A DNA stretch of 32,970 bases from contig CALWUJ010000021.1 of assembly GCA_944384725.1 (NCBI GenBank), positions 1 through 32,970 on the forward strand, read 5' to 3'. A program made the position numbers and the translations under genes. The notes beneath the pieces are model-generated. The model had not been told where the DNA came from and made no database searches. It worked only from the letters and a program-made list of their open reading frames with translations. This DNA is from an uncultured Agathobaculum sp. Its GTDB lineage: Bacteria; Bacillota; Clostridia; Oscillospirales; Butyricicoccaceae. This document shows, piece after piece, positions 1 to 15,461 of this stretch; position 1 is the stretch's first letter, and every line of letters starts with the position of its first letter.

Positions 1-561
1 CCGTGGAAAGATATTTTGGATGAAGCGAAACGTCTTGGCTATCGCAGCCACGGCGCAGGCACCTGTGGGCTGCACGTTCATATTTCGCGCATGGCGTTCG
101 GCTGTACTTACGAGACACAGGAAGCCTGCATCGCCCGCTTGGTGTACTTCGTCGAAAAGTTCTGGCCGGAGTTGCTGCGGTTCAGCCGGAGGACACAGGC
201 ACAGCTCAACCGCTGGGCAGCACGTTACGGCATGAAACTATGCCCACGGGAACAACTCAACCACGCGAAGGACTCCTGCGCCGGACGGTACACCGCCGTT
301 AACCTTACCAATGCGGACACGATCGAGCTTCGCCTGTTCCGCGGCACGCTCAAATACAACACCCTGATCGCCACCTTGCAGTTGGTCAACCACCTCTGCG
401 AGGTGGCGATTTCGCTTTCCGACACTGAATTGCAGGACATGAGTTGGTTCGATTTTCTCGACCGCATCGACGAACCCGAGCTGATTCAATACCTGAAAGA
501 ACGCCGGCTCTATGTCAACGAGCCGGTAAACACCAACACGGAGAACGAGGAGGCCTGCTGA
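1..561 (+). CDS. Amidoligase family protein (5' end outside window)
   Basis: The reading frame is open from the first base, so the gene begins upstream; about 186 C-terminal residues are visible. The motif GTCGLHVHIS near the start of the visible part is typical of the Amidoligase_2 family, a divergent glutamine-synthetase/ATP-grasp-related fold predicted to join carboxylates to amines. A later segment, TIELRLFRGTL, matches the conserved E-x-R-x-F-x-G region of that family. The stop codon overlaps the start of the next gene (TGATG), so the two are translationally coupled. Amidoligases paired with class II glutamine amidotransferases are a known gene neighbourhood, predicted to modify peptides or make small amide-linked metabolites. 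Substrate unknown. The early ATG at base 20 is in a different frame and is not the start. Confidence 0.85.
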   Translation, partial: PWKDILDEAKRLGYRSHGAGTCGLHVHISRMAFGCTYETQEACIARLVYFVEKFWPELLRFSRRTQAQLNRWAARYGMKLCPREQLNHAKDSCAGRYTAVNLTNADTIELRLFRGTLKYNTLIATLQLVNHLCEVAISLSDTELQDMSWFDFLDRIDEPELIQYLKERRLYVNEPVNTNTENEEAC

Positions 562-1505
562 TGTGCAGTTTATTCGGAATAATTGACCAACAAAACAAAC
601 TCACCACACGTGAAAAGAACCGCATTTTGAACACTCTTGCCCGCGAATGCGAGGTGCGTGGCACGGATGCGACCGGTATCGCCTATCACTTCGGCGGACG
701 GCTGCGCATCTTCAAGCGCCCGCTGCCAGCCCGCAAGCTACGCTTACGCGTGCCGAGCGGTGTAAACGTCATTATGGGGCACACCCGTATGACGACACAG
801 GGAAACGAAAAGTTCAACCAAAACAACCACCCATTTCCCGGCAGCATCGATGGCAAGACCTTTGCTCTTGCGCATAACGGCATCCTGTGGAACGATAAGA
901 TTCTGAAACAACAGGAAAATCTGCCGCAGACCAGCGTCGAAACCGACAGCTACGTTGCCGTGCAGCTCTTGGAACAACAAAACGCCCTCGACTTCGCCAG
1001 CCTGAAAGCTATGGCCGAGACGGTCGAGGGCTCTTTTGTATTTACGGTGCTGGACAGTGAGGACACCATCTGGTTCGTGAAAGGCGACAACCCGCTGTGC
1101 CTGTTTCACTACGACGGCTTCACGCTTTACGCTTCGACGCAGGAAATCCTTGTGAAAGCGGTAAAGCGACTGCGGCTAGGCAAGCCGCAGACCGTTCAGC
1201 AGCCGGAGGAGGGAGAAATCCTGAAAATCGACAAATTCGGCAATCAGACCACCGGCAGCTTCCTTCCGCGCACCAGCTACGCCCACTGGTGGCGCGGCGC
1301 GCCCTACTACGGTTACCCGTGGGACGTGGACGAGGCCGACAGCCTGCACGACGAGCTGCTCGCCGCCGCGAAGTCCATGGGCGTGAGTGCGGACGAAGTG
1401 CAAGCGCTCTTGGACTACGGCTGCGACCCGGACGAGATCGAGGAGCTGCTGTATGACCCGGCACTGCTGCATGAGATGACCGGCGAATTACTATACGCAT
1501 ATTAA
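561..1505 (+). CDS. Class II glutamine amidotransferase domain protein
   Basis: 314 residues starting MCSLFGII; Cys2 becomes the N-terminal nucleophile after Met removal, the hallmark of Ntn-type (GATase_6/7) glutamine amidotransferases. Supporting motifs are RGTDATGIA (33-41), GHTRMTTQG (73-81), HNGI (105-108) and ETDS (127-130), which match the glutamine-binding elements of the PurF/GlmS superfamily. There is no attached synthase domain; the C-terminal ~70 residues are acidic and specific to this branch. The start at 561 was chosen because Cys2 must follow the initiator Met, GAGGAGG lies at 547-553, and the ATG overlaps the amidoligase stop. Longer readings from upstream codons would bury the nucleophile. 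It probably supplies ammonia or transfers an amide in concert with the amidoligase; that cooperation is inferred from coupling and from known neighbourhoods. Confidence 0.88.
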   Translation: MCSLFGIIDQQNKLTTREKNRILNTLARECEVRGTDATGIAYHFGGRLRIFKRPLPARKLRLRVPSGVNVIMGHTRMTTQGNEKFNQNNHPFPGSIDGKTFALAHNGILWNDKILKQQENLPQTSVETDSYVAVQLLEQQNALDFASLKAMAETVEGSFVFTVLDSEDTIWFVKGDNPLCLFHYDGFTLYASTQEILVKAVKRLRLGKPQTVQQPEEGEILKIDKFGNQTTGSFLPRTSYAHWWRGAPYYGYPWDVDEADSLHDELLAAAKSMGVSADEVQALLDYGCDPDEIEELLYDPALLHEMTGELLYAY

Positions 1506-1520
1506 GGAGGGGCATCACAC

Positions 1521-1624
1521 ATGGGGCAATTTCCAAAGCGTTCGAACTGCTTGGTTCGTTCGTCGAAGTCGTGATTGAGATCGCGGAGAAATCCGCCAAA
1601 AACAGCAAAACGCCGGACAAATAG
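1521..1624 (+). pseudogene. Small ORF with apparent one-base frameshift
   Basis: A strong ribosome binding site (AAGGAGGGG, 1504-1512) precedes ATG 1521, but that frame stops after 17 codons. One frame over, an uninterrupted peptide-like stretch runs to TAG at 1622-1624 and reads ISKAFELLGSFVEVVIEIAE then KSAKNSKTPDK, a plausible amphipathic helix with a charged tail. A single missing base in the GGGG run just after the ATG would restore a protein of about 34 residues. It lies 16 bases after the amidotransferase stop and would be the third gene of that operon. It could be a decayed gene, a sequencing or assembly error in a homopolymer, or coincidence. Confidence 0.4.
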
Positions 1625-1626
1625 TC

Positions 1627-1725
1627 TGTCAATAGAGTATACCCTACTGACACAGCCAAAAAGTATGGCAATAGGGTCGGTTTCGGGGTTTTGCAATATG
1701 TCAAAACGGAACCCGACCCTATTGC
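1627..1725 (+). repeat. Two inverted repeats (hairpin-rich spacer)
   Basis: The 307-base spacer between the amidotransferase and the toxin-antitoxin pair holds two hairpins. The first pairs TGTCAATAG (1627-1635) with CTACTGACA (1644-1652), one mismatch. The second is much longer: GCAATAGGGTCGG at 1668-1680 pairs with the arm ending at 1725, continues imperfectly inward, and closes with GTTTTG against CAAAAC around a short loop near 1697. Both contain AATAG. Neither is followed by a clear T-run, so a simple terminator is not obvious; recombinase or regulator binding, or a decayed small mobile repeat, are alternatives. Confidence 0.6.
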
Positions 1726-1756
1726 AACACTTCGACCCGATTCAACAGCATCTTGC

Positions 1757-1785
1757 TTTACGGGCGGAGCGATTTTTGTTATAAT
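1757..1785 (+). promoter_or_regulatory. Promoter of the toxin-antitoxin operon
   Basis: A perfect -10 TATAAT sits at 1780-1785, with TTTACG at 1757-1762 as a moderate -35 after a 17-base spacer. It lies about 30 bases upstream of the antitoxin start and directly after the hairpin region. Confidence 0.6.
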
Positions 1786-1812
1786 GAGGACAATCTAACT
1801 AGGAGGGATGGT

Positions 1813-2112
1813 ATGCTGCCCGAATCGACCGGCATCCGCGATGTCGTTTTGAAACAGATCTGCGATCTTGCGGCACAATATGGCCTACGCAAGGTGATCC
1901 TGTTCGGTTCCCGCGCACGCGGCGACTTTAAAGAACGCAGCGACATCGACCTTGCGGTCAGCGGCGGCAACATTTCCGGCTTTGCGCTCGCGGTAGACGA
2001 AGAGACTGATACCCTGCTGCAATATGACGTGGTCAATCTGAATTGCCCCGTGGATGAGGCGCTGCTTGAAAATATTGAGAAGGACGGAAAAGTGCTTTAT
2101 GAAGAAGTTTGA
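1813..2112 (+). CDS. mntA: MntA-type nucleotidyltransferase antitoxin
   Basis: A 99-residue minimal nucleotidyltransferase. The motif GSRARGDFKERSDID (32-46) fits the GSx10DxD signature exactly; G32/S33 bind the nucleotide phosphates and D44/D46 bind magnesium. In characterised MntA/HepT systems this enzyme transfers AMP onto a tyrosine of its HEPN partner and silences it. The ATG at 1813 follows AGGAGGG (1801-1807) at proper spacing; an upstream in-frame start at 1753 has no ribosome binding site and precedes the promoter. The gene overlaps the downstream HEPN gene by 14 bases, so antitoxin and toxin are made together. HI0073-like housekeeping pairs of unknown role are the alternative reading of the same family. 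Confidence 0.87.
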   Translation: MLPESTGIRDVVLKQICDLAAQYGLRKVILFGSRARGDFKERSDIDLAVSGGNISGFALAVDEETDTLLQYDVVNLNCPVDEALLENIEKDGKVLYEEV

Positions 2113-2491
2113 GAATTTCTGTAAGGCACTGCACAATCTCGAGGATATCCAAAATTATCAGCCGCCTTATGACAATGTCGTGCTGATTGGACTGGTTTCG
2201 CTCTATCAAATTTGCTTTGAGCAGGCTTGGAAGGCAATGAAAGAGGCCATGGAGAACGAAGGCGTCAACACCGCTGTGACCGGCTCGCCGCGCAGCATTA
2301 TCAAGGAAGCCTATCGACTGCACATGATCGATGACGAGGCTGCTTGGCTGGGTGCATTGCAGGCGCGTAATCTCGCGTCCCACGCCTACAATCAGCAAAC
2401 CGCGCTCGAAATCATTGCGCAAATCAGCAGCACCTATCTACCGCTGTTCCGCGCATTGCAAACATCCATTGAGCAAAACTGGGTGCATTAA
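2099..2491 (+). CDS. hepT: HepT-type HEPN toxin (nucleotidyltransferase substrate-binding family)
   Basis: A 130-residue all-helical protein of the HI0074/HepT family. R90-N-L-A-S-H95-A-Y97 fits the Rx4HxY motif exactly: Arg and His form the HEPN ribonuclease site and the Tyr is the residue AMPylated by MntA in characterised systems. All three key residues are present, so the toxin looks intact. ATG 2099 was chosen because it is the first family-like Met and overlaps the antitoxin's end; the start at 2054 would run deep inside the antitoxin gene. A strong terminator follows 19 bases after the stop, closing a two-gene operon. It sits between the amidoligase module and a resolvase and probably stabilises the element or acts in phage defence (inference). 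Confidence 0.85.
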   Translation: MKKFENFCKALHNLEDIQNYQPPYDNVVLIGLVSLYQICFEQAWKAMKEAMENEGVNTAVTGSPRSIIKEAYRLHMIDDEAAWLGALQARNLASHAYNQQTALEIIAQISSTYLPLFRALQTSIEQNWVH

Positions 2492-2509
2492 AACCAATAA
2501 GAAACACAA

Positions 2510-2536
2510 AACGCTGCCGTTTGGCAGCGTTTTTCT
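2510..2536 (+). terminator. Rho-independent terminator after hepT
   Basis: AACGCTGCC and GGCAGCGTT form a perfect nine-base-pair stem around a GTTT loop, followed by a T-run. Confidence 0.9.
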
Positions 2537-2559
2537 TTTAGGAAAGAGGGAGAGAGCAC

Positions 2560-3120
2560 ATGAAAATCGGTTACATCCGTGTCAGCACGGAGGAACAGAA
2601 CCCTGTCCGGCAGCAGGTACTGCTGCACGAGTTGGGCGTGGACGAAATCTTCATCGACAAGGCGAGCGGCAAAAATACCGACCGCCCAGAACTGCAGCGC
2701 ATGATGGACTACGTCCGCAAAGGCGACACGGTGATCGTCGAGTCGATCAGCCGTTTCGCCCGCAATACTCGCGACCTACTGGAGCTAGTCGAGCAACTAA
2801 CCGCCAAGCAGGTCGAGTTCGTCTCCAAGAAGGAGGCGATCGACACCACCACCCCAACCGGCAAGTTCATGCTGACCATATTCGCGGCGGTGGCCGAGCT
2901 GGAACGAGAGTATATCCTGCAACGCCAGCGCGAGGGCATCGCCATCGCCAAGTCACAAGGCAAATACCATGGCCGCGCACCGCTGCCACTGCCCGACAAC
3001 TTCGACGATATCGTCGCCCAGTGGCGGCGCGGCGAGATCACCGCGAGGGAGGCCATGCGAAGGACAGGGCTTAAGCCTAATACATTTTACCGGCGGGTGC
3101 GATATATAAAAGCACTCTAA
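2560..3120 (+). CDS. Small serine recombinase (resolvase/invertase family)
   Basis: 186 residues with the full resolvase/invertase layout: the nucleophile Ser9 in GYIRVSTEEQ, the conserved RPELQRMM and VESISRFARN segments, a long E-helix rich in Glu and Arg, and a C-terminal helix-turn-helix around ITAREAMRRTGLKPNTFYRR (about 155-175). It should catalyse site-specific recombination at short inverted-repeat sites, acting as resolvase or invertase. ATG 2560 follows a GGAAAGAGGGAGAG ribosome binding region. It is separated from the toxin-antitoxin operon by a terminator, but no distinct promoter is obvious. Likely targets are nearby inverted repeats, possibly those at 1627-1725, which is a guess. 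Confidence 0.9.
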   Translation: MKIGYIRVSTEEQNPVRQQVLLHELGVDEIFIDKASGKNTDRPELQRMMDYVRKGDTVIVESISRFARNTRDLLELVEQLTAKQVEFVSKKEAIDTTTPTGKFMLTIFAAVAELEREYILQRQREGIAIAKSQGKYHGRAPLPLPDNFDDIVAQWRRGEITAREAMRRTGLKPNTFYRRVRYIKAL

Positions 3121-3336
3121 AAAGATTCAGCCATCGGTGGCATTCGGTGAAGGTACGCAGATGTCCAAAATAGTGCAAGATACTCGCCGGATTCAACTTC
3201 CATCGAGTTTATACAAATTACTCAGGAATTGAGGAAGCCTTACAATATCAATTTCTGACGAACCAACATAATCTGTGATAGTCCATGATACAAAGGGGGG
3301 CTTTCCTATTTATAGAAAAGCAAAAGTCCTCCATGA
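3121..3336. other. Intergenic spacer, no gene seen
   Basis: This spacer separates the resolvase from the oppositely oriented AT-rich gene. It holds only very short ORFs with no credible ribosome binding site and marks the sharp change in base composition. The inverted repeat at 3300-3321 is listed separately. Confidence 0.5.
3300..3321 (-). terminator. Weak hairpin after the AT-rich gene
   Basis: On the minus strand GCTTTTCTA and TAGGAAAGC pair (one wobble) around TAAA, 15 bases after the stop of the AT-rich gene. It is followed by CCCCCCTTT rather than a T-run, so termination strength is doubtful. Confidence 0.35.
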
Positions 3337-5442
3337 TCATTTTTGAATAATCCAAACAAGTTTCAGTTTTAAAGATTGCAATATGCACTCCCAAACTTCT
3401 AAATAAGCCTGAGATAGAATATATCGAATATCCGAAATCAGAGATTCATTAAAGCTTGTCAAAATAGTCTGTATTTCTGATTGCATATCAATTGTCTCCA
3501 ACAGCCATTTCAGAAAATAGAATTCACGCAATCCATATAGTAAAGTACGTTTATTTGAGTCACCGCTTTTCCTAACCATTTCAAAGTATTGGGTCAGTGC
3601 ACGGTGTATCTGCATATTTTCTTGTAAATCCATGATATCCTTATCACGAAATTCTCTTTTTATGATATTTAGGGTCTGTTCTTCTGAAAATACTGTCGTC
3701 ATCAAGTCGTCGTATATCTTTGAATTTTGGATTATTTCATCTAATTCTTGTTGGCCAATCATTTGTGAGCACAAAAAATCAAATATTTCTTGCAAAGTAA
3801 GTTGATGAAAATGAATCTGACACCTTAACAAAAGTGCTGCCAATTTGGTATCTGGCTCTAATTGATATTCAAGAGGAATTTCGTACGAAAAAATAGGTTG
3901 TTGCTTTAAGAAATTGTATACCATTATTGAGAAAATATTATTTATGATACACGAGTATTCATCAGTACAATTTGATTTGCTCTGGTATTCGACAAAATGT
4001 GTAGTAATCTGAAACGAAACAATATTTAAGTCTACACAAACAGTGCCCACTGCCAATTGAATTCTTCTGTAGCATTCCAATACTTGCATAGCCGAAGCTT
4101 TTTTCTCATTAAGAGGCAATTGTTCGTTTGGAAACAGCCAATGATATACCTGAAAGATAGCATTAATTGATTTTTGAGAAGGTAACAGACCGCAATACAG
4201 GGGAATAAAAACCTGCTCCGACAGCAGTTCTGCAATTTTCAAAATTGCACATCCCATATCTGTCTGTTGAAAGAACTTACATACTATTTTCCTTCTATTG
4301 CAGATATTTTCTAAGTTTCCCATTATGCCAACTACTATCATATCAAACGCTTGTGCATATAAATCAAAATGGTCATCCGCATATACATCACCAAACACGG
4401 GAACCAGCGCGTCATATATACGCCGAAAAGATAGGATAAAGTAAGGGAGCTTTCCCAAGAAGGAATTCGTTATAAATTTATAATTTTCCATATATATCGC
4501 ATGAGGTCCTTCGTGATTCCCACTGATCGCCCCATATATATCTTCAAACAGTTGCGTATACTGTCGTGCTGTAAACAATTTTTTCAGTTTATCAGGAAAA
4601 GTCATTTTTAAATAAAACTTCTTTTCGTCATTTGCAGTATTTTGTTTGCAATGCCGATCAGTGTTTGTCAGACATCTTACCGACTCATAAATACATTCAG
4701 GATATCTGACAAATAGCAAGAAGACATATAATGGAAAAACATAGGCGTATACCGGGCAATTAGCAATTACGCCGAACATTTTTTGTAAGTTTCGGATCAT
4801 TATCTTTTCAATATTTGGGCTCATAACGCTATGTAACTGATTGAAATAGAAATTGCAAAAAATATTCTTTAGGGTTTCTACCATACATGCATTTTGGCGG
4901 CATAATACCGAAAATATTTTGATCTTCCGTGCACGCGCAGATTCATCCAAAGGATCTCGTTTTTCTTCGAGGGATAAAAGCAAATCATCCAAGCTGACAA
5001 TATAATTTTTATGAAAAGAATTGATACTTTTACAAACATTCTGAAACAGATATGTGGCGCTCTTACGCGAATTATATTGTGCATTTAAATGATCAACCCA
5101 TGCGTTTATATCTTTGGAACTGGGCAGATCAGGGGAAAGCATATGACCATTTTGTAATTTCCAATCTTTGTTCGACACGCTCCAAGCCGTTGTTAATACT
5201 CGCATGCCATGCTGGACGTTTTTGGAGAAAAAATCCGAGTCAAAAGAATACTCATAACTGGCTAAAGTACTGACCAGCATACAGAAAACTTGAAAATCTT
5301 CATCGTTTTGCGAATCGATATCTGCATTTTTCAGAATCTCATCAATTTTTATCGTCAAGTGTTGTGCATATTCTATATTATTTGCTAGCGCCATTTTGTT
5401 GTATTCCAACACCAAAGGCATAAGCTGATTCACTATACTCAT
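3337..5442 (-). CDS. Unrecognised large helical protein, AT-rich cargo gene
   Basis: 701 residues, not recognised as any family. The sequence is rich in Leu, Ile, Phe, Tyr, Asn and Cys, with predicted helix throughout and no signal peptide. A hydrophobic patch (CPVYAYVFPLYVFLLFVRYP) could be a buried helix or a weak membrane segment. No P-loop, nuclease, methylase or protease motif is visible. The start is ATG at 5442 because AGGAGG sits seven bases upstream; the ATG two codons earlier is only one base from that site. The gene is on the strand opposite to its neighbours, has its own promoter, and its codon and base use are clearly more AT-rich than everything around it. That pattern, between a resolvase and a helicase operon, fits recently acquired defence-type cargo, but its function is unknown. 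Confidence 0.75.
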   Translation of the reverse strand: MSIVNQLMPLVLEYNKMALANNIEYAQHLTIKIDEILKNADIDSQNDEDFQVFCMLVSTLASYEYSFDSDFFSKNVQHGMRVLTTAWSVSNKDWKLQNGHMLSPDLPSSKDINAWVDHLNAQYNSRKSATYLFQNVCKSINSFHKNYIVSLDDLLLSLEEKRDPLDESARARKIKIFSVLCRQNACMVETLKNIFCNFYFNQLHSVMSPNIEKIMIRNLQKMFGVIANCPVYAYVFPLYVFLLFVRYPECIYESVRCLTNTDRHCKQNTANDEKKFYLKMTFPDKLKKLFTARQYTQLFEDIYGAISGNHEGPHAIYMENYKFITNSFLGKLPYFILSFRRIYDALVPVFGDVYADDHFDLYAQAFDMIVVGIMGNLENICNRRKIVCKFFQQTDMGCAILKIAELLSEQVFIPLYCGLLPSQKSINAIFQVYHWLFPNEQLPLNEKKASAMQVLECYRRIQLAVGTVCVDLNIVSFQITTHFVEYQSKSNCTDEYSCIINNIFSIMVYNFLKQQPIFSYEIPLEYQLEPDTKLAALLLRCQIHFHQLTLQEIFDFLCSQMIGQQELDEIIQNSKIYDDLMTTVFSEEQTLNIIKREFRDKDIMDLQENMQIHRALTQYFEMVRKSGDSNKRTLLYGLREFYFLKWLLETIDMQSEIQTILTSFNESLISDIRYILSQAYLEVWECILQSLKLKLVWIIQK

Positions 5443-5549
5443 TTTCATACCTCCTATATGCACCCATGTTTGCCGTGCCTCGTTGTATGATACAAATACG
5501 ATACCGTTCACCCAGCTCGTATATGACTGGGCTATTGGTGCCTATTTAT

Positions 5550-5578
5550 ATTATACCTTACCACACTTTATATGGAAA
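5550..5578 (-). promoter_or_regulatory. Promoter of the AT-rich gene
   Basis: On the minus strand, TTTCCA (5578-5573) and a perfect TATAAT (5555-5550) are separated by 17 bases, leaving a leader of about 100 bases before the start at 5442. Confidence 0.55.
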
Positions 5579-5607
5579 TATTTTGCTTCCTATTTTTATA
5601 GTTTTCT

Positions 5608-5613
5608 TATAAT
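5608..5613 (+). promoter_or_regulatory. Possible -10 element of the helicase operon
   Basis: A perfect TATAAT lies about 100 bases upstream of the operon start. No good -35 stands at 16-18 bases; TTGCTT is 19 bases away. The spacer 5443-5713 therefore seems to hold divergent promoters. Confidence 0.35.
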
Positions 5614-5684
5614 AAAAATAGAACATAATCTGATATTCACATCAGCTTCCCATTGATAAGATATTAGTGAGCTCAAAAAATTGA

Positions 5685-5704
5685 GGAGGCCTCCCCATAA
5701 GGAG
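5685..5704 (+). promoter_or_regulatory. Palindrome beside the operon's ribosome binding site
   Basis: A perfect palindrome GGAGGCCTCC (5685-5694) stands just before the likely ribosome binding site AAGGAG (5699-5704). The CTCC part could pair with either GGAGG before it or GGAG after it, so it might limit ribosome access. Confidence 0.35.
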
Positions 5705-5713
5705 AAATGCACC

Positions 5714-7315
5714 TTGAAAAAGCAAAACAAAATTCATGTCAAGCGGGTGATTAGCCTGCAAGACTCAACACTGGTACTCGGCAAGAGTTCTGGAAATGTT
5801 TTGCACGAACTGACTGAAAAAGAATGCGTTGCATGTGGTATTGATTTGGCCATTTCGCCAGAAGACATTGCGGAACAGAAAAATGTCGAATTCACCGAAA
5901 TCAAGCTCAACCGCAAAACCGCAGATCCGCCGATCTCACGTGCATCCCGCATCTCACCGGACAGTATGCTCCTGCGCCTGTTCGATCTGTTTGTGGATCC
6001 GGGATTCACCATCCAGCTACTAGGCGTGCTACTGCTTAGCCGATTCTGGTCGATTTTTTGGCCGGAGCTTGTGCCACGTATGCAAGTGCTGCTGACTGGA
6101 TTGATCGTGCCATCTGGCCCGTTGCTATGGATGATCCGGCTGATCGGTGGAGCAGAGTCATGGACGGGCAACGGTTGGAGTACCCAGCTTCCCACTTGTC
6201 TTTATGCCCGTCACAGCTTCGGACAAGCTACCGTAGCATCCCACTGGACGGACTATACTCGTACGGAAATTCGATTACGCAACCAAACAGTGCAGTTGCG
6301 CACCAGATATGTGGATCGTGCCGTTCTTATTCTGTCTAGCTTTCCAGCTTCCCTACAGCGAACCTTCCATGAGGAACAGCCGTTTGCTATACCGCTATTT
6401 GCGATGAGCAAAACGCCAACTCGTACCGATGTGACACTTTCCCTCGATGGTAGCATTAGCTGTACTTACGAGCAAATATTGTTCGACTATATGAAGGACT
6501 GCACGGACGAGCTGATGGCTGAATGTGAGGCGTTTGTCCGAACAGTACACAAGAAAAAACGTTGGCGGCAAGCTCTACTCGATGCCTTTCAGCAGCACTG
6601 CATCATTGGACGTGACGGTGATTATGTCAAATGTGCTACAGATGCAGATCGCCGCGTACACGCTGCTATGCTTGCGGTCCTGGAAATCTGGTTTCGCTGG
6701 CTCATTGATACGAATCGATGTGCCGAAGAAACCGCAAATGAGCGGTATATGGAAGTTTGGGCAGTAATACTGCCCGAAACCTATCCGAAACCGGCTGGCG
6801 ATTCCCAAGGAGAATTCCGAGTGGAGTCGCTTGGAACCTTTCTACGCTTCCTGAATGAACAGCTTGCGACAGTGCGTATCTCAGATCGTTTCGAACAAGG
6901 AAGTGTGGCGGTTGTTCGGGAAGTCGGCAGTGAAAAGCTGCTGATTTTACATCGCGAATTAACAGTCAATGCCTTGCTTGACTGGGCCAAAGCCCGACAG
7001 GTTGATTGCGCCTTCATCGATGGTCGCAAGTCTAGCGAAATCCCTGCTAAACTGCAACGTGAATGGATGACCGAAGCGCCGGATCTATTCAAAACAGGGG
7101 GACGAGATGTTACATGGAAGTGCGGTCTTGTAGACTCAAAGCACAAGGTGGCAGCCCTTGGCCTACGGTTGGAATTACTGCGGCGGCAGCTGGAAGCATA
7201 TCAAATTCCGGTCGATAGTGCGCTCGGGCAGTTAGTGTATCCACCGGAGTCGGATGCGCAGCCCGAATTTACAGAATCAGCAATTTGGGAAGACTTTCAG
7301 GAGCTTGACCTATGA
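5714..7315 (+). CDS. Unrecognised protein coupled to a Fe-S helicase-like gene
   Basis: 533 residues from TTG 5714, chosen because AAGGAG lies nine bases upstream; a TTG at 5681 is also possible but would place the ribosome binding site inside the gene. I do not recognise the family. An N-terminal region carries a CVACGID pair of cysteines. Around residues 90-145 is a hydrophobic stretch, including PELVPRMQVLLTGLIVPSGP, that might be a degenerate P-loop ATPase core (the GKS/T of a Walker A is absent) or two membrane helices. The remainder is mixed and charged, with KKKRWRQALLDAF suggesting a nucleic-acid-binding helix. The stop overlaps the helicase start (ATGA), so the two proteins are almost certainly made in fixed ratio and act together. 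Confidence 0.75.
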   Translation: MKKQNKIHVKRVISLQDSTLVLGKSSGNVLHELTEKECVACGIDLAISPEDIAEQKNVEFTEIKLNRKTADPPISRASRISPDSMLLRLFDLFVDPGFTIQLLGVLLLSRFWSIFWPELVPRMQVLLTGLIVPSGPLLWMIRLIGGAESWTGNGWSTQLPTCLYARHSFGQATVASHWTDYTRTEIRLRNQTVQLRTRYVDRAVLILSSFPASLQRTFHEEQPFAIPLFAMSKTPTRTDVTLSLDGSISCTYEQILFDYMKDCTDELMAECEAFVRTVHKKKRWRQALLDAFQQHCIIGRDGDYVKCATDADRRVHAAMLAVLEIWFRWLIDTNRCAEETANERYMEVWAVILPETYPKPAGDSQGEFRVESLGTFLRFLNEQLATVRISDRFEQGSVAVVREVGSEKLLILHRELTVNALLDWAKARQVDCAFIDGRKSSEIPAKLQREWMTEAPDLFKTGGRDVTWKCGLVDSKHKVAALGLRLELLRRQLEAYQIPVDSALGQLVYPPESDAQPEFTESAIWEDFQELDL

Positions 7316-9423
7316 AAAATCTCAAAAAAGTTACAGATTCGGGATTCGGGGCACAGCCATCCGTTCGGGCAGGAGAGAATGGTTTTGAAAAACTGCATCG
7401 ACGTCCAGATGATGAACGAATCGTGTTGGAGGTCATGCAAGAGATCAAGCGCATCTTTCAATCGCATGACCTATCCTTTTTTAACGGGCAGCAAGTGCTG
7501 TTAGAGCAATCGGTGCGCCAGATTTTAAATTTTGAGCGGGAGCGGCCTATCGTGATACCGCTCCCCCCGGGGTATGGCAAAAGCACACTACTGCGCGCGA
7601 TGCTACGGGTGCTGGCACGAGAGTTTGCACAGGGCACCCAATATGCTGAAAAGGTTAGCGGACTGATCATCGTCGTTGAAAAAACGGCGGAGGCGTATCA
7701 ACTGCGAGATCTGGCTAACCGATTCTCTGACAACATTGCACATGTGCTGGAGGGACCCAATGACTACAACATCTCACTTGGTAAGTGTCCGCGTCCAGAG
7801 GTGAAGAACTATGCAGACTGCCGCGGCATCGCTTGTCCAGACCAAGCCGACTGCCCGATTGCCCAATCGAAGAAGCGTGCTAATGTAACGCCTGTGCTTA
7901 TTCTGCTACATGCACGCTATCAACATTTTGTGGAGTGTATGACCCGCTTTTCTGTTTGGACAGATGCGCAGGGACAAAATCACGCCCGCAAGCTACTGCT
8001 CGTTGACGAAGCGCCGTCGCTGATGATGGATAATCGTATCAGTGATAGCGTGATCGCACGGCTGACCGAGGAAATCAGCCTGCTGCATCCGAGTTATGAT
8101 ACGGCAATCCGCTCTCGCAAGCAGGAAGTTCTGTACCAGATAACGCATCATTTAACCATTCCTTACCGGCGTCTCAAGCACAAGCTTTTCCTGCCAGATA
8201 CGCAAATTGCACTCATCTCGGCTGAGGCGCTGGCAGATGCGGGGTTTACCGAGGAAGGTTGCGGCAAGCTCGTTCAGGCGCTGTCAAAATTCAGTCCAGC
8301 GCATGCTGATCGTTGGCAGCAGATTCTGAACAGTCTGTTGTGCGAACCGGCATTGTTTGTCGTCGGGCAAGAGGAAACTGTATTCATACCAGCGCGAAAA
8401 AAGCCGGATGTGACACTGAATACAGCCTTTCTTAGCGGGTCGGCCATGTTTTCACCAGAATTGTGCTGCAATCCGGATCTGGAGATTCTGGATGTTCCGG
8501 AGCTTGAACAGTTTGCACATCTGACCATCCGTGTACTGCAAAACGACGCGCTGCAGGTTCACAAAACTGCGCTACAAAGCCGCAGCAGCAGACAGGCTTT
8601 GCTCTGCTGGATACATCATCAACTGACCGAGCTATCTTCGGACGATTCCGTGCTGCTGGTGGTGTACAAGCGCTATGCTGATGCATTTTGGCACGAACTG
8701 AATGCATTTCATGACAGGCTCATTCCGTTACAAATGGAAGATGGCAGAACCGCCAAACCGTCGCTTCCGTATTTTGGCGGCATGAACGGTTCTAATCGCT
8801 ATGCGCAGGCACAACATTTAATTTGTGCAGGGTTGGGTCGTTTTGAGACGTTGGATTATCTGAGTCGTGCTCTGGCATACGATTTTGACGGCAGCGCATA
8901 CAACGAACTGTGCCAACGCAGCACCAATCACCAACTGTGTCAGGCGCACGATTTGAACTGCGTTCTCGAGATGGAGTATCAGACGCTGGCGCGTGATCTG
9001 GTACAGCTGTTCTATCGTACCGCGCTGCGTAATCACGGTACCCACACTCCGGTCACCGTCTGGCTGATCAATCCGCCGGAACCGGTACTTCATAAAATCA
9101 CGAACTTTTTCCCGGGCTGCATAGTGCAGGTGACAACCGACTTGCCATCAGACTGCTTGAACGCTGCTGCCAGCAGCCGTAGGTATGCCGGAAAACTTAC
9201 CCACGCAGCGAAAGTTCTACGATGGTTAGACAGTTGGGATGGTAGCGAAATTTCCGTCGACCAAATCTGTGCAGCAACCGGTCTTTCCAAATCGCAATGG
9301 AAAGAGGCTCGAAAAAATCCCGCTGTCCGGGCGCAATTTGCTCAGATCAGGAAGCAGAAATATGGCATAATCACATATTACAGTCGAATGCCTGCTGATA
9401 CGGATCATGTGTCACCGATTTGA
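7312..9423 (+). CDS. DinG/XPD-like superfamily 2 helicase with cysteine cluster
   Basis: 703 residues. The Walker A region PPGYGKST ends at 92 and the Walker B is LLLVDEAP with D232/E233 (DEAP box). Between them, C159, C170, C175 and C181 have spacing Cx10Cx4Cx5C; the Cx4Cx5C part equals that of DinG, so an iron-sulphur cluster is likely. A motif III-like FLSGSAMF stands at 374-380, YFGGMNGSN at 487-495, and a motif VI-like QLFYRTALR at 565-573. The C-terminus (about 635-685) looks like a helix-turn-helix (ISVDQICAATGLSKSQWKEA). It should unwind or translocate on DNA using ATP. The branch is not ordinary DinG, and its fixed partner is unrecognised. pPIWI-RE systems also pair with DinG-like helicases, but no PIWI gene is present here. 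Confidence 0.78.
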   Translation: MKNLKKVTDSGFGAQPSVRAGENGFEKLHRRPDDERIVLEVMQEIKRIFQSHDLSFFNGQQVLLEQSVRQILNFERERPIVIPLPPGYGKSTLLRAMLRVLAREFAQGTQYAEKVSGLIIVVEKTAEAYQLRDLANRFSDNIAHVLEGPNDYNISLGKCPRPEVKNYADCRGIACPDQADCPIAQSKKRANVTPVLILLHARYQHFVECMTRFSVWTDAQGQNHARKLLLVDEAPSLMMDNRISDSVIARLTEEISLLHPSYDTAIRSRKQEVLYQITHHLTIPYRRLKHKLFLPDTQIALISAEALADAGFTEEGCGKLVQALSKFSPAHADRWQQILNSLLCEPALFVVGQEETVFIPARKKPDVTLNTAFLSGSAMFSPELCCNPDLEILDVPELEQFAHLTIRVLQNDALQVHKTALQSRSSRQALLCWIHHQLTELSSDDSVLLVVYKRYADAFWHELNAFHDRLIPLQMEDGRTAKPSLPYFGGMNGSNRYAQAQHLICAGLGRFETLDYLSRALAYDFDGSAYNELCQRSTNHQLCQAHDLNCVLEMEYQTLARDLVQLFYRTALRNHGTHTPVTVWLINPPEPVLHKITNFFPGCIVQVTTDLPSDCLNAAASSRRYAGKLTHAAKVLRWLDSWDGSEISVDQICAATGLSKSQWKEARKNPAVRAQFAQIRKQKYGIITYYSRMPADTDHVSPI

Positions 9424-9553
9424 ACAGCGCTGGCCACCAAAAACATACTATAAAAATAGGATATATAAAGGGTATTACTTCGATTGCTGACGGATTGTGC
9501 AATTCCAGAAGCGAAGAAGCATAAAGTAACTAAGACGGAGAGGAGGTCAATCT

Positions 9554-9670
9554 GTGAACGGTACGCAGACAAACAAGCGTTCATCGCAGTATCGGCAATT
9601 CCTGTTCGAGCTGCTCGAGAACGTTATCGCAGCGCAGTTCGAGGCAGAAACGGTCGGGACGCCGGTATAG
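9554..9670 (+). CDS. 38-residue ORF upstream of the large recombinase
   Basis: GTG 9554 follows AGGAGG (9541-9546) at seven bases. The product starts MNGTQTNKRSSQYRQFLFEL and continues into a short acidic, helical tail. The good ribosome binding site, helical pattern and position 48 bases before the recombinase start suggest a real small gene, perhaps an accessory or directionality factor. No family recognised. The spacer before it (9424-9553) shows AT-rich stretches but no confident promoter. Confidence 0.55.
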   Translation: MNGTQTNKRSSQYRQFLFELLENVIAAQFEAETVGTPV

Positions 9671-9718
9671 GGCATTAGGATCGCATGCAGGCGGAGAGTA
9701 GAAAGGAGGGAATACGCC

Positions 9719-11341
9719 ATGCGCGAAGTATCGACCGCTTGCAGGGCGGTTCTGTATCTGCGGCTGAGCCGCGACGACGATAGTCCCGGCGAAAGTGAGA
9801 GCATCCAGAACCAGCGCAGCCTGCTGCAAGAGTATGCGGCACAGCATGGATTCACCGTTGTCGGGGAATATGTGGATGATGGGTGGTCGGGCACGCGCTT
9901 TGACCGACCGCGCTTTCAGGATATGCTCCGCGATATGAAGCAGCACCGGTTCGAGGTCGTGCTGGTCAAGGATTTGTCGCGGCTTGGGCGCGATTATATC
10001 CAAACCGGGCGGTATTTGGAATTGGTGTTTCCGGAAAACGGCGTGCGGCTGATTGCGGTAGGGGATGGAATCGACACCGCGCGGTCAGATACCGACCTCG
10101 CGCCGTTCCGCAATGTTATCAACGAAATGTATGCCCGCGATACCAGCCGCAAGATTCGCAGCACGCTGCATACTAAGATGCAGGCGGGCAAGTTTATCGG
10201 TAATTTTGCACCATACGGGTATCAAAAAGATCCGCAAGACAAAAACCACCTGATTCCGGACGAGCGGGCTGCCTCGACCGTGCGGCAGATCTTTGCATGG
10301 GCGGCGGCGGGTAAGCGCCCGACGGAGATCGCGCGGATGTTGAACGAGCGCGGCGAGCCGCCGCCGGCGGTTTATCGCACTTTGGTGCATCCGGAACTGA
10401 ATCCGGACCATTACTCCAAACGCAAGGCGTGGACCTCGGTGGGCGTTAGCCGCATCTTGCAGGATGTGGTGTATCTGGGCCATATTGCGCAGGGGAAAAC
10501 CGACAAAATCAGCTTCAAAAGCAAAAAGACGCGCGAAAAACGGACAGAAGAGTGGATCATCGTCCCCGATTGTCACGAGCCGCTGGTTTGCCAGCAGACC
10601 TTTGACGCAGTGCAGCGCCAGCGGTCGGCTCGCCGCTGTGATCGGAAAGGAGCATTTTCCAATCTGTTTTCCGGGCTCGTCTTTTGTTTGGACTGCGGCA
10701 AGGCGATGTCAACAGTCAGCACACGCCGGAAAGGTTCGGCAGCGAGTCTGGCCTGCGGTGCGTACAAGCTGCGGGGAGCATCCGCCTGCTCCAATCATTT
10801 TATCTCCTATGAGTCGCTCTATCGCTGCGTTCTGGAGGCGGTGCGTCAATATGTCTGTCTGTCCGAACAGGACTGCGACGCCTTATTCGAGCGGTTGCAG
10901 CATCGTCTGCGTCTGGATGAGCGGGGACGAGAAACAAGCTGCGAGCGGGAACGTCTGATGCAGGAGCAGAAGCAGGTGCAGCGTCTGGTCGCGCAGCTTT
11001 ATGAAGATCGCGCGGCAGGGAAGATCGGGGAGACGAACTTTTATCCTCTGCTCGAACGGTATGAGCGCAAAACGGCTGCGCTGCAGCAGCAGATCGACGC
11101 GTTGCGGCCGGATAGCGGGGTGCAAAGCTTGCAACAGCTACAGGAACGCTTGCGGGTGATCATTCGCCGCTATACAGATGTGAAGGAGCTGACGCCGTCG
11201 CTGTTATTTGAACTGATCGAGCGGATCGAAGTCGGACAGGGTACATACGAAAAAACAGAAAAAGGCAAGGTGAAGCGGCAGAAAGTGATCATTCATTTCC
11301 GCTTTCTGCCCGCACCTTGTGAAATCGACTGGTTAGAATAA
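9719..11341 (+). CDS. Large serine recombinase (integrase)
   Basis: 540 residues. The catalytic domain holds the nucleophile Ser17 in VLYLRLSRDDD, the SESIQNQR segment and VKDLSRLGRDYIQTG. A recombinase domain follows (NFAPYGYQKD to about 280), then a zinc ribbon (FCLDCGKAM, then two more cysteines in ACGAYKLRGASAC) and a coiled-coil tail typical of TnpX/Tn4451-like integrases. It should integrate and excise the element through attP/attB without host factors. ATG 9719 follows AAGGAGGG. It is the last gene of the accessory region, its 3' end facing the chromosome. Domain order and length are complete, so it is probably active. Confidence 0.93.
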   Translation: MREVSTACRAVLYLRLSRDDDSPGESESIQNQRSLLQEYAAQHGFTVVGEYVDDGWSGTRFDRPRFQDMLRDMKQHRFEVVLVKDLSRLGRDYIQTGRYLELVFPENGVRLIAVGDGIDTARSDTDLAPFRNVINEMYARDTSRKIRSTLHTKMQAGKFIGNFAPYGYQKDPQDKNHLIPDERAASTVRQIFAWAAAGKRPTEIARMLNERGEPPPAVYRTLVHPELNPDHYSKRKAWTSVGVSRILQDVVYLGHIAQGKTDKISFKSKKTREKRTEEWIIVPDCHEPLVCQQTFDAVQRQRSARRCDRKGAFSNLFSGLVFCLDCGKAMSTVSTRRKGSAASLACGAYKLRGASACSNHFISYESLYRCVLEAVRQYVCLSEQDCDALFERLQHRLRLDERGRETSCERERLMQEQKQVQRLVAQLYEDRAAGKIGETNFYPLLERYERKTAALQQQIDALRPDSGVQSLQQLQERLRVIIRRYTDVKELTPSLLFELIERIEVGQGTYEKTEKGKVKRQKVIIHFRFLPAPCEIDWLE

Positions 11342-11375
11342 ACGGGACGTACCAATCGGATGGTGCGTCCCGTTT
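11340..11375. terminator. Bidirectional terminator at the element/chromosome junction
   Basis: Bases 11340-11353 pair with 11362-11375 over 14 positions with one wobble, around an eight-base loop. A T-rich tail follows on the plus strand and an A-rich flank precedes it, so it can serve both the recombinase and the convergent deacetylase gene. Confidence 0.8.
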
Positions 11376-11394
11376 GTTTCTGTCTGTTATGGAG

Positions 11395-13149
11395 TTATGT
11401 CAGTGCGGTGAAGCTTGTCAGAATTTTTGCGCCCTCTGCGCGAGTCGCGCTGCCCTGCGGAGCGAGTGTGGTCGCAGTGCGGCCGTTCAGCAGTCCGGAC
11501 GCGACCGCCCACTGCATGGCTTCCTGTGCATAGACGCTGATTTGCGCCGCATCCGTATAAGCAGACAGGTCGGCGCGTGCGCTGGTGTCCATGCCGAGGT
11601 GATTTGCCAGTCGGTAGAGCAGCACGGCGACCTGTTCGCGGGTGACTATGTCGTTTGGTGCGAAGGTTTCGTCGGTGTAGCCGGTCACAAGTCCGTTTGC
11701 CCGTGCCCAGTAAACGGGCAACGCATAATAGGCGTTTGCGTCCACATCCGCATAGGGATAGCCGAGGTTATCGCCTACCTCAGGCTTGCCCGCAAGGTTG
11801 TAGAGCACCGTGGTCAGCATCGCGCGCGTCATGGTCGTGTCGGGAGAGAAGGTATACGCGCTCGTGCCGTTCATCAGCCCCTGCTCGACGATCTCGCCCA
11901 CGCTGTCATAATACCAGCTGTCCGCCGGTACATCGGTGAACAGACGGCCATATTCAGTCAGCGTGCAGGTGACGACCGGGCTGTCCAGATGGCCGGACAG
12001 GACGGCGATGCACTTGGTCGTGTTGGTTTCGGGCGTAAACGCACCGGTGTAAAGCGTGCTTTGTGCGGTTGGCGTGGAGCCGTCGGTCGTGTAATAGATA
12101 GACGCGCCCGCGGTAGTGCACGAAAGCGTCAGCATACCGTTTTCATACGAAACGGTTGGTGCGGCTGTGGGCGGTACGCCTGCAACCTTTTTGGTGGTGA
12201 CAGGCGTGCGCGTACCGTACTGGTCGATGCCCACAACAGTAAACGTGGTGTCGCGGGTGATCGTGATCGGCCCGGTGTATTTCTGGCTGCCGAGGTGCGG
12301 GGTCATGCTGCTGGTCGTGTAGTACAGCGTCAGTCCTTTGTCAGCGGTAGAGAACGTCACCGAAACACCATTATCGCCCGTGGTGGAGCTGATGGTTGGC
12401 GCGGAATAAGCGGGCAGGTTGGTGCCGGTGTTCGGCGCGCTGGTGTAAACCTTACCATTTTGCGGGGTGATGCCGCGGCGGCGCAGAAGCTCGGAAACGG
12501 TCACAAATTCATAGCCTTGGCTTTTCAGCGTGTCGATCGCACGCAGCGCACCTTGCACGCTGGTCTGGTAGATGTCGTGTGCCAGTACGATTGCGCCGTC
12601 GTGCGCCTGTGACACGATCTGATTGTAGACCGTATTTGCGTTGCGGTATTTCCAGTCGAGGGGATCGACGCTCCACAGGATGATGGGCGCGGCAACCGCG
12701 CTCTTGACCGCGCCGCCCACAGCGCCGCCGGGCGTGCGCACCATATCGGTGTACGAACCACCCATGCGGTCAAACAGCAGGCTTTCCACGCGGCTGACCT
12801 CGCTCGAGATCGTGCTTGCGCCGTAGCTGTCGAACGGGATGAGGTGCTGGTAAGTATGGTTTGCGAGCTGGTGGCCTTCATCCCGCATGCGGGTGAGCAG
12901 GTCTTTGTGGTTGACAATGCCGTGCGAGCCGTTTGTACCGTTCATAAAGAACGTCGCCTTGGCACCGCGGGCTTTCAAGCCATCCAGCAGAGTAGCGGTG
13001 TAGGCCGAGGGGCCGTCGTCAAAGGTGAATGCAATCAGTTTGGTGTTTGCGCTCGCGGCAACAGGCGTTTCCTCGGCTGCGGCGGCCAGCGGCAGGCAGG
13101 AAATAAATAGGGCGAGCATCAATAGCAGAGCAGTCAGTCTTTTTTTCAT
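11395..13149 (-). CDS. Secreted polysaccharide deacetylase with SLH anchors
   Basis: 584 residues. A signal peptide (about 1-25, ending LAAAA) precedes a NodB-type deacetylase domain: TFDDGP (42-47), NHTYQH with H98 and H102, RTPGG, WSVDPLDWK and LAHD, giving the D45/H98/H102 metal triad and the catalytic motifs. Next come chitobiase-C-terminal-like beta domains (TTDGSTPTAQSTLYTGAF), then three SLH repeats (LFTDVPADSWYY onward, YPYADVDANAYY onward, LSAYTDAAQIS onward) that bind the pyruvylated wall polymer. It probably removes N-acetyl groups from peptidoglycan or another surface glycan, giving lysozyme resistance or wall remodelling. ATG 13149 follows AAGGAG; an upstream in-frame start would lie before the promoter's transcript start. 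Confidence 0.92.
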   Translation of the reverse strand: MKKRLTALLLMLALFISCLPLAAAAEETPVAASANTKLIAFTFDDGPSAYTATLLDGLKARGAKATFFMNGTNGSHGIVNHKDLLTRMRDEGHQLANHTYQHLIPFDSYGASTISSEVSRVESLLFDRMGGSYTDMVRTPGGAVGGAVKSAVAAPIILWSVDPLDWKYRNANTVYNQIVSQAHDGAIVLAHDIYQTSVQGALRAIDTLKSQGYEFVTVSELLRRRGITPQNGKVYTSAPNTGTNLPAYSAPTISSTTGDNGVSVTFSTADKGLTLYYTTSSMTPHLGSQKYTGPITITRDTTFTVVGIDQYGTRTPVTTKKVAGVPPTAAPTVSYENGMLTLSCTTAGASIYYTTDGSTPTAQSTLYTGAFTPETNTTKCIAVLSGHLDSPVVTCTLTEYGRLFTDVPADSWYYDSVGEIVEQGLMNGTSAYTFSPDTTMTRAMLTTVLYNLAGKPEVGDNLGYPYADVDANAYYALPVYWARANGLVTGYTDETFAPNDIVTREQVAVLLYRLANHLGMDTSARADLSAYTDAAQISVYAQEAMQWAVASGLLNGRTATTLAPQGSATRAEGAKILTSFTALT

Positions 13150-13173
13150 AATAGTCTCCTTTTCGGGGAAAAC

Positions 13174-13192
13174 GTGGATATGAGATATCCAC
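13174..13192 (-). promoter_or_regulatory. Perfect inverted repeat at the deacetylase transcription start
   Basis: GTGGATAT and ATATCCAC form a perfect eight-base inverted repeat around three bases. It begins directly at the downstream edge of the -10 element and covers the expected transcription start, a typical repressor operator position. Confidence 0.55.
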
Positions 13193-13221
13193 ATTGTACC
13201 CGTTTTCTCGCGTGCCGTCAA
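13193..13221 (-). promoter_or_regulatory. Promoter of the polysaccharide deacetylase gene
   Basis: On the minus strand TTGACG (13221-13216) and TACAAT (13198-13193) are 17 bases apart, a near-consensus sigma-A promoter. Confidence 0.75.
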
Positions 13222-13236
13222 TCATGGCAGGATATT

Positions 13237-13265
13237 AAAAAGCCGCTGCCCTAAAGGACAGCGGC
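13237..13265 (-). terminator. Terminator of the apt-purine permease operon
   Basis: On the minus strand GCCGCTG and CAGCGGC extend inward with one wobble to a TTTA loop and are followed by five T, starting 17 bases after the permease stop. Confidence 0.88.
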
Positions 13266-13281
13266 CCCTGAGCGTTTGCAC

Positions 13282-14655
13282 TTACAGGAAGATATACTTC
13301 AGGATGAACAGTACCGCCAGCACATACATGAGAGGGGTAACCTTTTTGCCCTTGCCTGCGGCGAGGTTGAGCAGCACATAAGAGATTACGCCCATGGAAA
13401 TGCCTTCGGAAATGCTGTAAAACAGCGGCATGGAAATGATGGCAAGGTAAGCCGGGATGGCTTCGGTCAGGTTGTCCAGATCGAAGCGGATTTCGGTGAC
13501 CGTGCCGACCATCAGGAAGCCGACCATAATCAGCGCCGGGGCGGTGGCGAAGGAAGGAATGGCAGTGAAAATCGGCGCAAACAGCGTCGAAATCAGGAAC
13601 AGTACGCCCGTGACCAGTGCGGTCAGGCCGGTGCGGCCGCCGACCGCCACGCCGGAAGCGGACTCGACAAAGGTTGTGGTGGTCGAGGTGCCGAGGATCG
13701 CGCCCGCCGAGGTTGCAATCGCATCGGACAGCAGCGCAGGCTTGATGCGCGGCAGCTTGCCGTCCTTGTCGAGCATTTTTGCCTTGGTGGCAACGCCGAT
13801 CAGTGTGCCGAGCGTGTCAAAAATATCGACGAACAGGAACGAGAAAATGACAACGGCGAAGTTGAGAATGCCAACTGCGCCGAAATCGACGTTGAAGCAC
13901 TGGCCGAAGGTCAGGCCGAGCTTGGTAAAGTCGGTCATGCCGAAGGTCGGGAACAGGGTATAAAAGCCCGCTTCCGCGTTCGGCACATACAGGCCGGTCA
14001 GCTGGCAGAGCATACCGATGATCCAAGTTGCCAGAATGCCGAACAGGATCGCGCCTTTGACGTGGCGGATATACAGCACCGCCGTGATGAACAGACCGAT
14101 CAGCGCAAGCAGTGCGCAGATGCCAGCGGTGTGGAAATTATCCGTAAAGCTGGTGATGGTGACGAGCGTGGAGGAGTCGACCGACAGGCCCGCGTTTTGC
14201 AAACCGATGAATGCAATAAACAGGCCGATGCCGACCGAAACGCCCTTTTTGAGCGTCAACGGAATGGCGTTGAAGATCGCTTCGCGCACATTGGTCAGTG
14301 ACAGCATGATAAAGACCAGACCTTCGATAAAGACCGCGAGCAGCGCGACCTGCCAGCTGTAGCCATAACCGGCGACAACAGTGTATGCCATAAACGCATT
14401 CAGCCCCATGCCGGCGGACAGCGCAAACGGCAGGTTTGCCATAAACGCCATGCAGACCGTGCCGAGGCAGGAGGCAAGCGCAGTTGCCAGCAGGACGGCA
14501 GTCGGGTCCATACCGGTCGAGCCGAGGATGCTCGGGTTGACCGCGAGAATGTATGCCATGGTCATGAAGGTGGTGATACCTGCCATGACCTCGGTCCGGA
14601 CGGTGGTGTGGTGATCCGACAGCTTGAACATCTTTTCAAACATGTGTGGTTTCAT
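13282..14655 (-). CDS. NCS2 family purine (guanine/hypoxanthine/adenine) permease
   Basis: 457 residues, nearly all hydrophobic helices, typical of the AzgA-like NCS2 transporters (about 430-480 residues, 14 membrane segments). Signature stretches are TTFMTMAYILAVNP, ALSAGMGLNAF, the loop FVDIFDTLGTLIGVA, and STTTTFVESASGVAVGGRTG, which hold substrate-binding residues. It should import purine bases by proton symport. It lies 30 bases after apt on the same strand, so imported adenine or other bases would be salvaged directly. The start is ambiguous: the ATG at 14655 lies right against AAAAGGGG, while an ATG four codons later is 12 bases from it. Exact base specificity cannot be read from the sequence. 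Confidence 0.92.
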   Translation of the reverse strand: MKPHMFEKMFKLSDHHTTVRTEVMAGITTFMTMAYILAVNPSILGSTGMDPTAVLLATALASCLGTVCMAFMANLPFALSAGMGLNAFMAYTVVAGYGYSWQVALLAVFIEGLVFIMLSLTNVREAIFNAIPLTLKKGVSVGIGLFIAFIGLQNAGLSVDSSTLVTITSFTDNFHTAGICALLALIGLFITAVLYIRHVKGAILFGILATWIIGMLCQLTGLYVPNAEAGFYTLFPTFGMTDFTKLGLTFGQCFNVDFGAVGILNFAVVIFSFLFVDIFDTLGTLIGVATKAKMLDKDGKLPRIKPALLSDAIATSAGAILGTSTTTTFVESASGVAVGGRTGLTALVTGVLFLISTLFAPIFTAIPSFATAPALIMVGFLMVGTVTEIRFDLDNLTEAIPAYLAIISMPLFYSISEGISMGVISYVLLNLAAGKGKKVTPLMYVLAVLFILKYIFL

Positions 14656-14685
14656 CCCCTTTTGTTCTCTCTATTTTCCCTTTTA

Positions 14686-15210: not shown

Positions 15211-15288
15211 GCTTTCTCCTCCATGTGGCTTTTTCTCCGCATTCTGTGTGGGCTTGTGCCGCCCGCAGGCAGCACATGATATACCATC

Positions 15289-15317
15289 ATTTTAAGCAAA
15301 ACCGGCGTGCAATACAA
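15289..15317 (-). promoter_or_regulatory. Possible promoter of apt
   Basis: On the minus strand TTGTAT (15317-15312) and TAAAAT (15294-15289) are 17 bases apart. The -35 is weak. A TATAAT at 15330-15325 further upstream is an alternative but lacks a -35. Confidence 0.4.
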
Positions 15318-15414
15318 GAGTTTTATTATATGAAATCCGGTGGGTTATCTTGGTGTTTTTCTGCATTTTATGCATTTTGGAAGCGGTTTCCATACAATTT
15401 GCGGTAAAGTGTAC

Positions 15415-15456: not shown

Positions 15457-15461
15457 GGAGT

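Follow-up and report, generated by a model that had tools for sequence, protein, structure and literature searches.

Elements of the SCC and SCC-like type carry a helicase operon directly before the recombinase, and the passages on these elements in two published studies propose that its products replicate the excised element (PMC7581432, PMC10061031). In the same passages the helicase Cch is described as containing a DUF927 domain and as related to SaPIBov1 Rep (PMC7581432, PMC10061031). Superfamily 2 (SF2) helicase domains fused to primases in mobile elements are reported in the relevant part of a third study (PMC5862659).

The DNA investigated here, referred to as the window, is a 32,970 nucleotide stretch on contig C21 of an Agathobaculum genome assembly that is 78% complete and in 47 contigs. 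A preliminary description had reported two overlapping genes, one for an iron-sulfur (Fe-S) helicase and the other for an unrecognised protein, here called the partner, and had interpreted them as an undescribed defence or element-maintenance system. The observation itself is confirmed and its interpretation partly supported. To our knowledge, the initiator helicases that have been described from integrative elements are active AAA+ motors. Does the pair belong with these? Or, does it serve the element in some other way? We give it close to an even chance of being the core of a replication or maintenance module in a rare integrative-element family of gut Clostridia.

The partner, the helicase and a divergent third gene

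The genes of the module and their features are as follows.

3337–5511, minus strand: divergently oriented third gene of the module, encoding 724 aa, with 35% GC, without a recognised family and probably fast-evolving
5512–5713, no strand: intergenic region common to the third gene and the partner, containing a 15-nt sequence at 5588–5602
5714–7315, plus strand: partner gene for a 533-aa protein, by prediction an AAA+ pseudo-ATPase of MCM/Cch-like type with a C-terminal winged helix
6095–6115, plus strand: expected P-loop site of the partner, approximately residues 128–134, GLIVPSG, with GK[ST] absent in the aligned loops of nine partners
6824–7204, plus strand: predicted C-terminal winged-helix domain of the partner, approximately residues 371–497
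7312–9423, plus strand: DinG-like SF2 helicase with a four-cysteine motif, 703 aa (phrog_2488, E 6.9e-7)
7561–7587, plus strand: helicase Walker A, PPGYGKSTL (K90), from sequence motif and homologue alignment
7786–7854, plus strand: helicase Fe-S-type motif C159-x10-C170-x4-C175-x5-C181, from alignments
8005–8010, plus strand: helicase Walker B, DEAH-like, D232-E233, from alignment
9004–9030, plus strand: helicase motif VI-like QLFYRTALR (Q565, R569, R573), from alignment

Both reading frames are as first described. The partner starts with TTG at 5714, preceded by AAGGAG, and its stop ends at 7315; the helicase runs from ATG at 7312 to a stop ending at 9423, so that the two overlap by 4 bases (ATGA) and are coupled in translation.

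No profile in Pfam, NCBIfam, PADLOC or PHROGs matches the partner significantly, the best being Pfam DUF7833 (E 0.16), and Pfam DUF927 matches none of the 5 partners scanned. Homology to DUF927 was also sought for the partner, the helicase and the third gene by hhalign against a six-sequence DUF927 alignment, and was rejected at a probability of 0.2% or less. By structure comparison the predicted partner fold is an AAA+/MCM-like core with a C-terminal winged helix, nearest to SCCmec Cch and SaPIBov1 Rep; prediction quality was poor for the window partner and good for a homologue. With the better model, Foldseek returned nothing at E<=0.001 and its top relevant match was the MCM structure 6raw_7 (E 0.12). 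We consider it likely, on these models, that the partner has an MCM-like AAA+ fold and a C-terminal winged helix. The model of the window partner itself gave two viral matches at E<1e-4, to an unnamed protein and to a protein labelled as a phage transcription factor, and a weaker one to a phage protein with DUF927 (E 0.065).

Walker A is present in 6/6 DUF927 controls and in 0/9 partners. In two partners a GK[ST] occurs close to the N-terminal end, at residues 23 and 18, away from the P-loop position. Purifying selection acts on the partner; the ATP site of its AAA+ domain seems to have been lost, yet the gene is maintained by selection. The suggestion that the partner might hold a degenerate P-loop region was thus a good guess, given a predicted MCM-like AAA+ fold that lacks the P-loop.

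The helicase motifs that had been read from the single sequence are present, with exactly the cysteine spacing described, and are conserved. Eight aligned full-length helicases share K90-S91-T92, D232-E233, all four cysteines, between K90 and D232-E233, and Q565, R569 and R573 of the motif VI-like segment. The complete GK[ST] is found in 7/8 full-length members, the exception being G1046 with GGAKST. The C-terminal helix-turn-helix (HTH) that had been proposed is conserved in sequence, but Pfam offers only a sub-threshold match in one homologue (HTH_20, E 0.06).

How close is this protein to DinG? The match to the PHROGs 'DNA helicase' profile covers residues 41–238 only; E. coli DinG matches the same profile at E 3.1e-47, and among 6 helicase homologues scanned 5 have no match and L010 has one at E 0.018. 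Pfam DEAD_2 and Helicase_C_2 do not match the window helicase or the homologues scanned. When five of the eight helicases are aligned with E. coli DinG, C170, C175 and C181 fall on DinG C194, C199 and C205, and the first cysteine is unaligned. The hhalign match of the helicase family to DinG (E 4.6e-4) spans 67 columns at a probability of only 33%. Because of the cysteine alignment and this short, low-probability match, the N-terminal half is judged DinG-like by sequence; the divergence of the C-terminal half prevents its placement in this way.

The module had been described as two genes. The pair is indeed coupled, but a third gene on the minus strand (3337–5511) had been overlooked. A long gene of 522–799 aa lies on the opposite strand just upstream of the partner at 9/9 loci; that of the window has no significant profile in Pfam, NCBIfam, PADLOC or PHROGs. 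By phmmer, homology is confined to two groups of loci, one comprising the window, C18 and L008 and the other G1008 and G814, with none at the other four, so we infer only from position, orientation, size and composition that they are the same, fast-evolving gene. GC content is 35–46% in the third gene (nine loci) versus 47–59% in the partner (eight measured). Between the window and C18, a second locus of the same genome, DNA identity is 90% over 1–3074 and 88% over 5668–7580, and the third-gene proteins between these flanks are 28.5% identical. As far as these sequences go, the third gene is a hypervariable cassette.

Distribution and element context

The helicase is rare. It was found in 3/99 relatives, 3/87 family genomes, 5/394 order genomes, 3/391 class genomes (one the window's own genome and two weak) and 6/250 genomes of the family of G166 (one weak); named carriers among relatives are Butyricicoccus sp. 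Marseille-Q5471 and Agathobaculum butyriciproducens. The partner was found in 2/87 family genomes and in 6/400 genomes, one of the six being a short chance match; the samples of the helicase and partner searches overlap. A partner match in G284 (39 residues, E 1.5e-5) was dropped, as its locus has no partner-like ORF. Searches by tblastn found no relatives of the window helicase or partner in plasmids and phages, of the L010 helicase in plasmids, or of the L029 helicase and a distant helicase in phages. Viral contigs held no relatives of the window helicase, the L010 helicase or the window partner. No strong match of the pair to a known system was found. The pair is undescribed in the titles and abstract openings of the PMC papers listed by the searches, which is weak evidence of absence, subscription papers and preprints being outside that scope.

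There are nine partner loci: the window, C18, two in G002, and one each in G166, G216, G814, G1008 and G1046. At all nine the helicase follows the partner and the trio of third gene, partner and helicase is together. In C18, stop codons interrupt the helicase gene, the main part of which belongs to a more distant type. At the eight unbroken loci, with start codons picked mechanically, the two genes overlap by 4 nt at four and by 1 nt at one, and are separated by 94–121 bases at three. The claim of a fixed coupling therefore holds when viewed from the partner (9/9, one helicase broken), but not from the helicase: no partner-like ORF is present in the DNA fetched around two helicase remnants (a C-terminal piece in G007, and G934, which is minus the N-terminal part) or three distant helicases (G647, G547 and G847).

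The surroundings of the trio in the window are as follows.

16–561, plus strand: Amidoligase_2-like gene, truncated by the contig end (E 0.0014, 19 bits, below the 22-bit cut-off)
561–1505, plus strand: element gene resembling those for class II glutamine amidotransferases, with similar genes in other elements
2560–3120, plus strand: the element's small serine resolvase/invertase (PF00239)
9441–9470, plus strand: AT-rich promoter-like stretch after the helicase, ACATACTATAAAAATAG
9470–9602, no strand: approximate right breakpoint of the module, from DNA homology to four congeners without it

Upstream of the trio, several elements carry DUF3846, amidoligase-like, class II glutamine amidotransferase and small resolvase genes. 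The L039 homologue of the Amidoligase_2-like gene matches at E 3.1e-8, and the small resolvase gene of the window is almost wholly inside the DNA that is 90% identical to the C18 copy. Downstream, C18, G216, G814 and the remnant in G934 have tyrosine integrases, C18 and L008 carry an excisionase-like HTH_17 gene, and large serine recombinases are present in C3 and, by eye, in G007 and farther off in G1008; G1046 and L008 have no integrase after the helicase within the fetched DNA. The G934 element has its integrase and is bounded by 23-bp direct repeats of the tRNA-Cys 3' end. Such att repeats were found there only, the compared stretches of the C3 and G1008 elements having none at 11–13 nt or more. 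The C18 integrase is 1.4 kb from tRNA-Ser.

The pair had been described as lying beside recombinases. This is literally so, but the large serine recombinase downstream (9719–11341) does not belong to the module. Together with a small upstream ORF and a deacetylase it co-occurs in G014, G001, G005 and G003, none of which has a helicase or partner match, and from its presence beside the same deacetylase in these congeners we judge it, by sequence, to be a resident gene. As a candidate for the module's integrase it was rejected, since the homology to these four genomes spans the recombinase and the deacetylase and ends before the helicase, beginning at 9499, 9601, 9602 and 9747. The window element possibly no longer has xis and int genes of its own; its AT-rich stretch after the helicase resembles, by eye, one before the xis-int genes of C18. 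The left end of the element lies off the contig, and the flank homologue in C5 shows no junction.

The 15-nt sequence at 5588–5602 recurs inverted at 9447–9461. It is the sole lead from a search for iterons 3' of the helicase, where inspection found nothing notable and the post-helicase gap of the window holds no 9-mer repeat.

Proposed role and alternatives

Of the two interpretations offered in the preliminary description, maintenance fits better than defence because of the Cch/Rep/MCM-like fold predicted for the partner, the excisionase and integrase neighbours, and the att repeats of one relative. For replication, the partner would be a catalytically dead initiator bound to the element's origin, probably as an oligomer, which recruits or loads the DinG-like helicase. 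The helicase would supply ATP-driven unwinding, which Cch and Rep do themselves, and the excised circle would thereby replicate or persist until reintegration. The third gene product could be a fast-evolving accessory or regulatory protein. Counting against replication are the lack of an origin and of a primase, the nearby toxin-antitoxin-like genes, of which one is a PADLOC candidate, and the hypervariable third gene.

If this is a replication module, initiator and motor functions are divided between two proteins, a likely role is gained for protein families unrecognised by the profile libraries used, and there is a testable system for a dead AAA+ scaffold loading an SF2 helicase. The coupled helicase would, from its sequence, be of Fe-S type and from a repair family. 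In the full version, a catalytically dead AAA+ protein of MCM/Cch type would recognise the origin and load an Fe-S SF2 helicase of the DinG/XPD kind, which would serve the integrative element as its replicative motor; this is put forward tentatively and is rather doubtful. If true, such a replicon would rely at the fork on an XPD-family helicase in place of a hexameric ring, and only a scaffolding role would be left to the ring protein.

Three alternatives remain: defence, mobilisation and repair, in that order. Might the helicase and its dead AAA+ partner instead unwind incoming phage or plasmid DNA or interfere with it, with the hypervariable divergent gene as sensor or specificity factor? 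The extent of third-gene divergence inside conserved flanks resembles that of specificity cassettes, and toxin-antitoxin-like genes (MNT-HEPN, Fic, HipA-like) are neighbours of the trio, among them a nucleotidyltransferase at 1753–2112 that matches the PADLOC candidate PDC-S09 (E 5.2e-11); the helicase also has a weak match to PADLOC typeIV_DinG (E 0.026). However, PADLOC 2.0 gave a best E of 0.0098 across 13 trio proteins (3 from the window and 10 from other loci), over 47 residues of one third gene, so that trio profiles do not support defence. No nuclease or known effector was identified within the trio, and the predicted partner fold is of the replication-initiator type. Defence or exclusion of other elements is unlikely.

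Transfer by a helper conjugative element, with the partner as an oriT-binding accessory and the helicase unwinding the nicked strand, is improbable. Winged helices are common folds, this role gives no account of the AAA+ domain, and Pfam scans of 30 proteins from the elements and their flanks revealed no relaxase. Least probable is that the pair assists integrase-driven excision or protects element DNA, the helicase working on unusual DNA structures as chromosomal DinG does. Neighbouring genes include xis and int, the G814 element holds a YqaJ recombinase and DUF932, and a DinB-type polymerase lies beside the G166 trio near the resolvase position. However, YqaJ and DinB each came up at a single locus (other flanks being partly covered and read by eye), and the MCM-like partner is left unexplained.

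Comparison with known replication modules and helicases

Under the replication or maintenance reading, the closest counterparts are SCCmec Cch and SaPIBov1 Rep. The partner shares with them a predicted AAA+/MCM-like fold with a C-terminal winged helix, and the operon likewise lies near the site-specific recombinase of an integrative element in Bacillota. Unlike Cch and Rep, the partner is without Walker A (9/9) and without detectable DUF927 profile similarity, and a separate DinG-like helicase comes after it. The window recombinases are also not those of SCC, scoring 114.8 bits (large) and 92.7 bits (small) with the NCBIfam CcrB profile against a cut-off of 900. Whereas SCC is found at rlmH, the G934 element is at tRNA-Cys, and tRNA-Ser is the gene near the C18 integrase.

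A multi-gene replication operon of sporadic occurrence beside an integrase is also seen, in the portions of two reports that treat them, in the pattern-2 CCPol-MP-Cch2 operon of SCC and in the Pol-SSB-helicase-recombinase elements of Bacillota (PMC7581432, PMC10061031). Compared with these as portrayed there, no PolA-like protein, AEP or DnaG primase is among the proteins scanned here, and the present helicase is an SF2 enzyme with a four-cysteine motif and not AAA+.

With DinG (E. coli; phrog_2488) and XPD the helicase shares Walker A and B, the Cx4Cx5C spacing of the last three cysteines and a motif VI-like Q..R...R. It differs from them in its identity of about 16%, the lack of Pfam DEAD_2 and Helicase_C_2, the unaligned first cysteine, and a diverged C-terminal half that contains both a PYFGGxNGxN-type block and an HTH-like region at the C-terminus. 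By analogy, a precedent for SF2 enzymes in mobile-element replication may be found in the AEP-primase-fused SF2 and UL9-like phage helicases (pVOG1685, pVOG9714), as presented in the part of PMC5862659 that deals with them. Those are primase fusions, whereas here a separate helicase is coupled to what appears to be a dead AAA+ protein.

Left part of the element in two copies

The left part of the element is present twice in this genome, with window 1-7580 corresponding to positions 1-7377 of L011, a stretch of a second contig, C18. The C18 copy is a mosaic, in which a window-type partner gene and helicase start are fused to a different, broken helicase. The gene divergent from the partner, window 3337-5511 (-), has a low GC content and encodes a protein 28.5% identical to its C18 counterpart. 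The DNA of its flanks is 88-90% identical to the C18 copy, unlike the hypervariable gene between them, which on this comparison resembles a cassette that has been swapped or is diversifying rapidly.

Surroundings of the partner-helicase operon

A perfect 15-nt inverted match, ACTATAAAAATAGGA, is found at window 5588-5602 and 9447-9461, in non-coding stretches flanking the partner-helicase operon, one on each side. It is a possible candidate for a shared operator or promoter. A large serine recombinase and the 38-aa ORF upstream of it (window 9554-11341) make up a resident unit, which four congeners carry next to a polysaccharide deacetylase gene. Window 31555-32940 (-), at the contig's right end, encodes another large serine recombinase.

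Helicase relatives and an MNT/HEPN-like pair

In stretch L041, a 12-kb element (7358-19433) with 23-bp att repeats is inserted in tRNA-Cys and carries a truncated helicase and, judged by eye, two-component and TRAP-transporter-like genes. Distant helicase relatives are encoded in L031, L032, and L042, with a serine recombinase nearby in L031 and L042 (by eye). No partner-like ORF was found in these three stretches (0/3), nor did any of their helicases match a helicase PHROG profile (0/3). Window 1753-2491 holds an MNT/HEPN-like pair, in which a Polbeta nucleotidyltransferase (PF18765), matching the PADLOC candidate PDC-S09 (E 5.2e-11), is followed by NTase_sub_bind (PF08780).
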